Shown here: piece after piece, positions 19,940 to 38,272 of the stretch
How positions within the stretch are numbered: position 1 is the stretch's first letter
Layout: the number at the start of each line of letters is the position of its first letter
Assembly: GCA_005882895.1 (NCBI GenBank)
Contig: VBBD01000011.1
Location: 1 to 51,350, forward strand
Direction of reading: 5' to 3'
From: Candidatus Bathyarchaeota archaeon
GTDB lineage: Archaea; Thermoproteota; Bathyarchaeia; 40CM-2-53-6
DNA: 51,350 bases
Made by a program: the position numbers and the translations under genes
The notes under the pieces: model-generated
What the model saw: the letters and a program-made list of their open reading frames with translations, nothing else
What the model was told of the DNA's origin: nothing
The model's database searches: none

Positions 19940-20329
19940 TTGAGCCCATCACAACCAGGGCCAAGAAATGGGTTAGACGAGGCCAACTTCCAGGGAAAGA
20001 TTGTACGCCTTATCGCAATGGAGAGGAGGCCTGAGGAAGCGCTCGACGCGCTTTGCGCACATTACCGCGTAGAGAGACCTGCTCTGAGGATCGGTCTACC
20101 GAAAGGCGAGAAAAGGGCGCTCGGATGCTATGTGCATAGGGAGCGGACTATCTACATGTCGAGTGAAGAATACATGTTTGATCCATACGTGTTGATCCAT
20201 GAATTTTACCATCACTTGAGACATGTGGGTGGGAAACACAGAGGGACCGAGCGACACGCGCGTGATTTCGCTCTTTCTTTCCTGAGGAATGCCCAGAGCA
20301 GCGATGGCCGATCTGATGGCTCGAGTTAG
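19940..20329 (+). CDS. Small HExxH zincin-like protein
   Basis: The 129-residue protein carries a minigluzincin-like motif, VLIHEFYHHLRH, followed about 10 residues later by a Glu (RGTERHARDFA) that could be the third zinc ligand. The N-terminal half has Arg/Glu-rich helices. Such small zincins resemble IrrE- or SprT-type peptidase cores. Substrate and pathway are unknown. The TTG start at 19940 is one option; an ATG a little downstream (MERRPEEAL) is another. The 3' end overlaps the convergent endA gene by 4 nt. About 120 nt upstream (19823-19939) hold no gene I can support. Confidence 0.65.
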   Translation: MSPSQPGPRNGLDEANFQGKIVRLIAMERRPEEALDALCAHYRVERPALRIGLPKGEKRALGCYVHRERTIYMSSEEYMFDPYVLIHEFYHHLRHVGGKHRGTERHARDFALSFLRNAQSSDGRSDGSS

Positions 20330-20895
20330 GCTTTGAACCAGCTAAAAACGAGATATCTGATGTCGTTCTGCTTTGTGTCTGGAATAGCAATGATGAATTG
20401 CTTCCTTACGGTTGTCGCTAGCCTTCCAGCTCGGACTACCTCGAAAGGCCCCATGATGGACTCTGGGTCTTCGACCGAGACGATGAAGGGCGCGTGATCT
20501 ATCCCAGGTCCGTGCTCATAGACTGCAAAGTCAGCACCGAATTTTATTCCGGGCGTGACTATGTAGCCCTTGTTTCTCAGGTCCTTGTATACTTGGTATG
20601 CTTGACTGAATCCACGATACGTCTCTCTCGCTTCTCTCAATAAGAGAGATTTGCGAACTGGTTCTTTGGTTCTTCCGTCGATTACTGATATCCTGCCATG
20701 CTCGAGAAGGTATAGCCCTTCCATAAGGTCGAGCAAGAGTGGAACGTCGAAGTCTTGGTCCGGCTTTGGTTTTGGTATCCCAACTGGTTTTCCGAAGAAA
20801 CCCGAGCGGTAAATGTCGAGCCCGGTCTTGGCATCCCATACAATGAGACGGGTTCCAATAAGTTCAGCTTCGCCTTGAAGGGTCGTGGACTTCAT
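20326..20895 (-). CDS. endA: tRNA-splicing endonuclease catalytic subunit
   Basis: EndA cuts bulge-helix-bulge structures to remove introns from tRNA. The 189-residue chain has the expected size of a homotetrameric or heterotetrameric subunit. It keeps the catalytic triad Tyr126 (ADFAVYEHG), His134 (DHAPFIV) and Lys165 (TVRKQFIIA). It is the last gene of a leftward row rpo12-glyS-phoU-endA, only 7 nt behind the PhoU-like gene. It is relevant to this window because a three-intron tRNA lies at 38056-38207. Cutting non-canonical sites usually needs a heteromeric enzyme, and a partner subunit is not in the window. Confidence 0.95.
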   Translation of the reverse strand: MKSTTLQGEAELIGTRLIVWDAKTGLDIYRSGFFGKPVGIPKPKPDQDFDVPLLLDLMEGLYLLEHGRISVIDGRTKEPVRKSLLLREARETYRGFSQAYQVYKDLRNKGYIVTPGIKFGADFAVYEHGPGIDHAPFIVSVEDPESIMGPFEVVRAGRLATTVRKQFIIAIPDTKQNDIRYLVFSWFKA

Positions 20896-34237: not shown

Positions 34238-34657
34238 ATGAACTTCACCTTCTACGCACATGGCCATCGGGCTGTTTTGTCAACGCACCTAACGACTCTG
34301 GAGCTTACAAAGGAGGATGTCCTTAGCAAGAAAGGAGACTGCATCGTTGCAGTCGGGTCTTCTGCGGGACTAAGAGACTTGCCTGAACCTATGAAAAACG
34401 CTCTCTCCAGCGAAGCCTGTAGAGCCTGCCTGACTCTGAAGCTTGACGCCCATCGATTCACGATCGAGGGCCGTGGCGCTCGGGGGTTGACGTTTTCCCA
34501 TCCGACGGACATCGTGGTTAGAAAGAGCAGCTTTGTCTCTGATAGGACGCTTATGGTGCGTGCTAATCGGGCGGCAGCAGATCTTCCAAGATCATTAGTG
34601 GATCTGCTTCAAGATCCTGGCCGAAAGGTTTTGGTTGAACTTGCTGTCGAGACCTAG
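34238..34657 (+). CDS. DUF371 family protein
   Basis: The 139-residue protein from ATG 34238 matches the archaeal DUF371 family: YAHGH, then TTLELTKED, KKGDCIVAVGSS and the diagnostic HPTDIVVRKSSFVSDRTLMV. Function is unknown; the core may be a small beta barrel. A GTG-like extension to 34220 would only add a few residues. It is convergent with trm5, with stops overlapping by 4 nt, and stands alone on its strand. Confidence 0.8.
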   Translation: MNFTFYAHGHRAVLSTHLTTLELTKEDVLSKKGDCIVAVGSSAGLRDLPEPMKNALSSEACRACLTLKLDAHRFTIEGRGARGLTFSHPTDIVVRKSSFVSDRTLMVRANRAAADLPRSLVDLLQDPGRKVLVELAVET

Positions 34658-35757
34658 GACGAGGTAAGTTTAGCATCTACCGCAACTTGCCACTTCATCG
34701 GAGCTACACCTCTTACTTTATGTGTCTCTATGGTTTTTTCGATTTTCCAACCTGAATTATCGAGGGCCGCTGCAAGTTCTTTCCTGGCATTTGACTCGCT
34801 GTCTAATCCTTCTGCGAACGTGTAGTAGTGTACGATTCCTCCGTCGCGCCTAAGCGCTTTGTAAGCGGGTTCGAGAAACTCCCTCGCCTGAGAGGGGTGG
34901 TTCATTATCACTCGCGTGGCTATGCCGGAGAGATTGTCCTGGACGACGACTCGCGCGTCGCCGGACCACACTTTTATCCTATCTTGGACCTTGTTCATCT
35001 TCGCGTTTTCTCCGATCAGCCTGGCAGCCTCAGGGTTGGCATCGATGGCATGGACTTGTACATCGTTCAATCGTTTTGCGATCATTATCGAGAACGGTCC
35101 CACTCCAGCGAACATGTCTACAACGCACTCACCGGGCCGGACCTGTTCGGCCACTCTCTTGTGCTCGGCAGATAGCCGTGGGGAGAAGAAGGCTCTCGAA
35201 ACATCGATCTTGAAGCGACATCCTAGCTCGTTGTGAATCGTCTCGGTTCGTTCGGCGCCAAGGAGGTGATGGAGAGGCCTCAATCGGAGGTTGTCAGTTA
35301 TTGGTCCCGCCTTTGAGTAGACCGTCTTGACGTTCTTGTGTAGTTTCATTAGTGCTTCAGCGATGCTCTCTTCGTAGGGTTCTGCTGTAGGGGATAGTTC
35401 TATGATGGCGATGTCCCCGATAATATCGAACGATTTTGATACGAGTTGAATGATACTCGAAGGCAGTTTCTGCGCTAGAACTTGTTGCAGCGAGCCAACG
35501 GTTTCTGATCTAGAAAGAAATTTTTCATGAGACAGACTCTGTTTGCCTAGGGCTCTGTCAAGCTGTTTCCGCTCTTCCGGCTGTGGCTCCCTCGATAGCG
35601 GCACATGAAGCGTATCGTCTATCATCTGAGGTGCAAGCTTTCTGTTTAGTAGTTTCAGTTTCGTGAGGACTTGGATCGCATTCTCTCCCTGTTTCTTAGG
35701 AATCTTGAGAGACACGCTTTCCTGTAGTCGGTCTGGGTCTTTTTCGTTGCGTATCAA
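34654..35757 (-). CDS. trm5: tRNA (guanine-37-N1)-methyltransferase
   Basis: Trm5 methylates G37 next to the anticodon and prevents frameshifts. The 367-residue protein has the D1-type N-terminal domain, the D2 linker, and a class I fold with the SAM motif VVDMFAGVGPFSI, the HAIDANPEAARLI strand and the NHPS motif (RVIMNHPSQA). The C-terminal strand (GVAPMKWQVAVDAK) fits. TTG 35757 is the start. Upstream on the same strand is the HEAT-repeat gene after 15 nt. Confidence 0.92.
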   Translation of the reverse strand: MIRNEKDPDRLQESVSLKIPKKQGENAIQVLTKLKLLNRKLAPQMIDDTLHVPLSREPQPEERKQLDRALGKQSLSHEKFLSRSETVGSLQQVLAQKLPSSIIQLVSKSFDIIGDIAIIELSPTAEPYEESIAEALMKLHKNVKTVYSKAGPITDNLRLRPLHHLLGAERTETIHNELGCRFKIDVSRAFFSPRLSAEHKRVAEQVRPGECVVDMFAGVGPFSIMIAKRLNDVQVHAIDANPEAARLIGENAKMNKVQDRIKVWSGDARVVVQDNLSGIATRVIMNHPSQAREFLEPAYKALRRDGGIVHYYTFAEGLDSESNARKELAAALDNSGWKIEKTIETHKVRGVAPMKWQVAVDAKLTSS

Positions 35758-38055: not shown

Positions 38056-38207
38056 TGGCGGGCCCGGAGGGATTTGAACCCTCGACCATTCCCCGAACGA
38101 GTCGGATGGACTCGTCCTTCAGGTTAAGAGCTTCAGCCTTAGAGTCTGCTGCTCTACCTGGCTGAGCTGCCCGACTAGACCAGGATGTGTGTCCGGTTTA
38201 CGGGCCC
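38056..38207 (-). tRNA. tRNA-Lys(CUU) with three introns and encoded CCA
   Basis: The gene reads on the minus strand from 38207. Exons are 38207-38199, 38167-38146, 38131-38119 and 38088-38056; introns are 31, 14 and 30 nt. Joined, they give acceptor GGGCCCG with CGGGCCC, a 4-bp D stem, an anticodon loop CUCUUAA (anticodon 38128-38126), variable loop UGGUC, T arm GAGGG/CCCUC, discriminator G and CCA. Intron 1 (9/10) has a CCCG/CGGG helix and 3-nt bulges UA^A, CA^G. Intron 2 (30/31) has a CAGC/GCUG helix, bulges AG^A, AA^G and outer GAG/CUC. Intron 3 (43/44) has a 9-bp inner stem, but its central helix has a mismatch. The G27-A43 pair is mismatched. Confidence 0.85.
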
Positions 38208-38240
38208 ACGAACCCGCCGAAGGCTCGGTCGCGGCCGAAT

Positions 38241-38250
38241 TTCTAATAAG
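38241..38250 (-). promoter_or_regulatory. TATA box for the tRNA gene
   Basis: The minus strand has CTTATTAGAA, 34-43 nt before the mature 5' end at 38207. It fits an archaeal tRNA promoter with a short 5' leader trimmed by RNase P. Its position supports 38207, not the later internal GTCGGGC, as the true 5' end. Confidence 0.5.
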
Positions 38251-38272
38251 GGTTACCGTTTCTGAGAAGAAG

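Follow-up and report, generated by a model that had tools for sequence, protein, structure and literature searches.

A tRNA-Lys(CUU) gene with three predicted introns in a soil archaeon of the Bathyarchaeia whose tRNA genes are rich in introns

Background

The locus described here raises two questions: whether a lysine tRNA interrupted at three points can be a working gene, and whether such a gene is out of place in the archaeon that carries it. In archaea each bulge-helix-bulge (BHB) motif of a tRNA precursor is cut by the endonuclease EndA, and the exons are joined by the ligase RtcB. The stretch of DNA analysed (the window, 51,350 nt) belongs, as contig C14, to a soil Bathyarchaeia MAG whose assembly totals 1.97 Mb and is 86.6% complete, a placement that supports the Bathyarchaeia-like host suspected in an earlier note on this DNA. 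ARAGORN reports no tRNA when run over the window, and the unspliced gene reaches only 25.1 bits with the Rfam tRNA model against a cut-off of 29 bits, so that both tools, used alone, miss it. We find that the locus is very probably a functional tRNA-Lys(CUU) gene, from whose transcript a two-subunit EndA would cut three introns and whose exons RtcB would join.

Results

A splice parser was written that enumerates BHB introns (3-nt bulges cut after the second base, a 4-bp central helix, inner and outer pairs), takes out as many as three or four of these, whatever the order, and rates the product as a tRNA. The solution proposed in the earlier note, which places a 31-nt intron at 9/10, a 14-nt one at 30/31 and a 30-nt one at 43/44, is ranked first by this independent enumeration, which gives the following parts (below, L-numbers designate tRNA loci and f-numbers families of more distant relatives).

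38056..38207, minus strand: the whole tRNA-Lys(CUU) gene, with its three introns and the encoded CCA (splice parser, alignment of relatives)
38199..38207, minus strand: exon 1, acceptor 5' strand GGGCCCG with U8 and A9 (parser, alignment)
38168..38198, minus strand: intron 1, 31 nt, at 9/10, strict BHB
38146..38167, minus strand: exon 2, D arm, A26 and anticodon-stem bases 1-4 (parser, alignment)
38132..38145, minus strand: intron 2, 14 nt, at 30/31, strict BHB
38119..38131, minus strand: exon 3, G31, anticodon loop CUCUUAA and positions 39-43 (parser, alignment)
38089..38118, minus strand: intron 3, 30 nt, at 43/44, relaxed BHB
38059..38088, minus strand: exon 4, with the variable loop, the T arm, the 3' strand of the acceptor and G73 (parser, alignment)
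38056-38058, minus strand: encoded CCA (sequence)
38212..38218, minus strand: leader motif GGCGGGT, some 5-11 nt before the 5' end of the mature tRNA (family loci)
38240..38252, minus strand: TATA-like CCCTTATTAGAAA 5' of the tRNA, kept in same-genus loci, a putative promoter
20326..20895, minus strand: EndA alpha subunit, tRNA-splicing endonuclease (Pfam 4.4e-27)

Once spliced, the exons form a complete cloverleaf with the conserved residues: a mature tRNA of 74 nt with the GGGCCCG acceptor, a D arm, the CUU anticodon, a 5-nt variable loop and a T arm. Its one mismatch of note, G27-A43, is found in relatives too. A BHB motif is present at every junction, strict for the first two introns and relaxed for the third, as had been proposed. 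Intron 1 has a full central helix (CCCG/CGGG, 4/4), outer pairs GGG/CUC and bulges UA|A and CA|G; intron 2 likewise has CAGC/GCUG (4/4), outer pairs GAG/CUC and bulges AG|A and AA|G; intron 3 has three of four central pairs (CCU/GGG, the fourth an A-G mismatch), an inner stem of 9 bp and no outer helix. When the intron letters were shuffled with the sites held fixed, the BHB scores of introns 1, 2 and 3 were matched in 10, 2 and 23 of 20,000 trials respectively. At the level of sequence, a three-intron tRNA-Lys(CUU) gene is thus confirmed, and its earlier description agrees with each detail that we checked. We also considered a split or permuted tRNA and set it aside, all exons lying in order within 149 nt. 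In the leader, GGCGGGT is kept in family loci while the remaining leader diverges, and a TRM5/TYW2 tRNA methyltransferase gene (34654-35757; Pfam 1.1e-48) lies about 2.3 kb from the tRNA gene.

The layout is not peculiar to one assembly. It recurs in 16 congeners and, beyond the genus, in two other genera of the family, and the gene is intact across 19 related species. All 16 relatives that we re-parsed yield CTT, in agreement with the proposed Lys(CUU) identity, and place introns 1 and 2 at the same sites; the parser places the intron 3 boundary differently in 5 of the 16. An alignment of 18 orthologous loci from three genera has variable columns at only 1 of 77 exon positions compared with 44 of 75 intron positions (Fisher p = 1e-16), and all length changes are confined to the introns. 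Across the same 18 loci, 96.8% of the pair cells of the drawn precursor structure stay paired, against 25-53% when the structure is slid along the alignment. Introns 1 and 3 show compensatory two-sided changes in their inner stems; because the central and outer helix pairs do not vary among the aligned loci, the covariation supports the inner stems only.

Among more distant Bathyarchaeia, the same gene carries other combinations of introns:

f2 (L179, L180): D loop, 30/31 and 43/44
f3 (L181-L187): 9/10 and 30/31
f5 (L190, L191), f20 (L200) and f24 (L201): 30/31 alone
f8 (L192): 9/10 alone
f4 (L202): 30/31, 37/38 and 43/44
f13 (L177, L178): 9/10, 30/31 and 37/38
f25 (L197) and f15 (L205): 30/31, 37/38 and 44/45

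The intron at 9/10 is missing, with a contiguous exon, in f2, f5 and f20, that at 30/31 in L192 of f8, and that at 43/44 in f3, f5 and f8. Since for each of the three joins there is a relative in which it is naturally continuous, the exon boundaries are fixed, including the weaker one at 43/44. This bears directly on the alternative that survives best, in which intron 3 has other boundaries, with a strict 4-bp helix shifted inward by two bases and a variable loop of 9 nt. Locally that BHB is the stronger one, and in the 5 discordant relatives the parser prefers it or another boundary; the intron-less relatives of f3, f5 and f8, however, have a 5-nt variable loop, and in f2 (L179, L180) a strict 4-bp BHB falls exactly at 43/44, so that we regard a shifted boundary as improbable.

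A second alternative is that the locus is a decayed remnant, a lysine tRNA disrupted by insertions whose task is carried out by another gene. Its failure to reach the Rfam cut-off unspliced, and its invisibility to ARAGORN, would suit such a pseudogene, but decay is hard to reconcile with near-invariant exons and diverging introns over 18 loci and with a layout kept across three genera, nor does the assembly offer an intronless substitute of the kind that the earlier note had named as a test. The spliced sequence, with up to three mismatches allowed, occurs nowhere in the 86.6% complete assembly; the host-wide survey that had been called for returned no second Lys(CUU) among 39 parsed tRNA genes; and Lys(UUU) is a separate gene (L009) with two introns. 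The gene is apparently the host's only copy, and a pseudogene is very unlikely. In congeners, loci that resembled extra Lys copies (L210-L215, with exact T-arm and acceptor matches) proved to be tRNA-Arg(UCU).

Still less credible is a shorter reading with two introns, in which the tRNA would start at the internal GTCGGGC and what we call intron 1 would be no intron. The Rfam match does begin there (38172). A fold from that start, however, scores 7.4, and those from nearby starts at most 20.1, against 31.1 for the full mature tRNA, so the internal 5' end, also raised earlier as a possible refutation, gives no better fold. The internal segment moreover differs between relatives (GTCGGGC, GGCCGGGC, GTCGGGT), in contrast to the constant 3' acceptor strand, L192 has the 9/10 intron alone, and f2 and f5 have the contiguous exon. 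Processing to an amber-reading tRNA with a CUA anticodon, taken from the CTCTAAG loop in intron 2, can be dismissed with about equal assurance, such parses appearing only lower in the parser's list (total score 31.6 against 36.0) and the CUA being lost in several relatives (GCTCAACG, GCTCCAG).

Genes predicted to process its transcript accompany the three-intron tRNA-Lys(CUU) gene. The EndA gene that had been noticed in the window is indeed intact, and its product aligns over its full length with Aeropyrum pernix EndA (3p1z; 1.7e-43), the alignment placing the Tyr, His and Lys active-site residues and also matching A. pernix K44, in the crenarchaea-specific loop, with a lysine. This loop lysine is reported to confer broad substrate specificity (PMC6379350). 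A second, divergent EndA gene on contig C18 is without the Tyr and His, as expected of a structural beta subunit. With separate catalytic and structural genes and the loop lysine, the gene set fits a predicted (alpha-beta)2 heterotetramer of the type that cuts relaxed BHBs. The genome also encodes the RtcB ligase (3.2e-170).

From these genes and motifs we infer the steps of processing. The transcript, with its three introns, would be cut at the BHB sites by EndA alpha, with its crenarchaeal loop, assembled with beta, and RtcB would ligate the exons into the 74-nt tRNA, which would read AAG. Computed folds suggest an order. The central helix of intron 1 uses the acceptor 5' strand, and the outer helix of intron 2 borrows from the D stem. 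As the transcript grows, the acceptor 5' strand and the end of intron 1 are paired at a probability of 0.99 as far as base 144; with the 3' acceptor strand finished, this intron 1 helix falls to 0.00 and the acceptor stem takes its place. Four relatives show a similar switch, less complete in some, L034 being mixed at full length. As the acceptor 5' strand is held by intron 1 until the 3' strand has been made, intron 1 is probably removed first, during or soon after transcription. EndA is absent from the energy models and the central helix of intron 2 is favoured in none of the computed folds, and for both reasons the order of splicing is one that we infer rather than observe.

Set among the other tRNA genes of its genome, the lysine gene is typical. 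By the heuristic parser, about 36 of the 39 parsed host genes carry introns with a good BHB score, 28 carry two or more and 12 carry three, for a total of 76 introns or about 1.95 per gene; these totals are approximate because the parser failed or was unsure on L004, L007, L110 and L113. Spurious 10-nt "introns" in Leu variable arms are excluded from the counts, and the set contains near-duplicate Pro(GGG) and Arg(CCG) genes. The same heuristic finds 61 introns in 29 tRNA genes of a congener (G005). A check independent of the parser points the same way: a genome of the host family has only 12-18 tRNA genes above the Rfam cut-off, against 19-31 for the order's remaining families and 24-39 for the class's remaining orders. 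On this sequence evidence the host genome belongs to the small known class of intron-saturated archaea.

Introns are present in nearly all host tRNA loci (L001-L030, L107-L122); L016, for Asn(GUU), contains three, each with a strict BHB, and Phe, Ala(GGC), Pro(GGG), Ser(UGA), Gln(CUG) and Trp also parse with three. The tRNA-Asp(GUC) gene (L113, G000:C18:44630-45100; L155) has a long 5' insertion, kept in two congeners, and possibly more than three introns. In G005 an intronless, bacterial-looking tRNA-Ala (L216, G005:C19:1700-2150) stands beside a high-scoring tRNA on a short contig and is probably contamination. The Lys introns have no near-identical counterpart in other host tRNAs (best match 0.39 against a background of 0.35), high matches among host introns occurring only between duplicate genes.

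Discussion

In some dozen related families the tRNA-Lys(CUU) gene is interrupted between one and four times, the introns falling at a small number of fixed sites. The 30/31 intron is found in nearly all of them, while the other sites are gained or lost, as read from presence and absence. Four introns are predicted in three loci. L206 (G040:C3:102267-102433, plus strand) and L225 (G059:C1:85094-85254, minus strand) have them in the D loop and at 30/31, 37/38 and 43/44, a layout common to two genera of f9, and L195 of f13 (G044:C27:5405-5568, minus strand) has them at 9/10, 30/31, 37/38 and in the T loop at 59/60, its kin L177 and L178 having the first three introns and an intact T loop. Each yields a good mature tRNA, and in L206 and L225 a limit of three introns is clearly worse. 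The stated maximum per tRNA gene is three introns (PMC8450103, PMC3293823), which these Bathyarchaeia genes, as parsed from their sequences, exceed.

Several short BHB introns at non-canonical positions in one tRNA gene recall the Thermoproteales, in which Pyrobaculum calidifontis has 71 introns in 46 tRNA genes, up to three per gene (PMC8450103), and EndA has two subunits (PMC4090602). Unlike those organisms, the present host belongs to the Bathyarchaeia of soil, with its heuristic count of 76 introns in 39 parsed genes, and whereas intron transposition is reported in Thermoproteales, the host's Lys introns share no clear sequence with other tRNA introns; transposition of that type between host tRNAs was considered for them and not borne out. 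Caldiarchaeum subterraneum likewise has non-canonical introns outside Crenarchaeota, several in some genes, but only 13 of its 45 genes are interrupted (PMC3293823). A further likeness is to the Asgard Atabeyarchaeia and Freyarchaeia of wetland soil, described in 2024, in which 92-95% of tRNA genes have introns, over half of them several and often non-canonical, with 228 tRNA introns in three soil genomes (PMC11291895). Those sets are similarly intron-saturated, with multiple and non-canonical introns, and come from soil; they belong to a different archaeal lineage, and four introns per gene occur in other Bathyarchaeia.

The earlier note had thought a three-intron gene beside EndA unexpected in such a host. 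That judgement is not supported, given the intron load of the host's other tRNA genes, the one to four Lys(CUU) introns of other families, the Asgard precedent, and the presence of EndA in every genome tested, with two genes in most of the Bathyarchaeia genomes among them. The surprise is smaller for the Lys(CUU) gene than had been supposed and larger for the lineage as a whole. Our literature coverage, which was incomplete, turned up no published description of intron-saturated tRNAs in Bathyarchaeia. We put forward tentatively, as possible rather than probable, an undescribed class-wide system of intron-saturated tRNA genes with up to four introns, in which removal of intron 1 would be tied to transcription as the finished acceptor stem erases its splice site.

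Conclusions

Because standard tools miss the tRNA-Lys(CUU) gene, tRNA annotation in these soil archaea is probably incomplete. The lysine in the EndA loop agrees with the view that endonucleases of broad specificity and the load of introns evolve jointly, in this case within a lineage from soil. With one to four introns at fixed sites across families, and a known outcome at each site, this one gene makes the question of whether tRNA introns are ancient or late directly testable.
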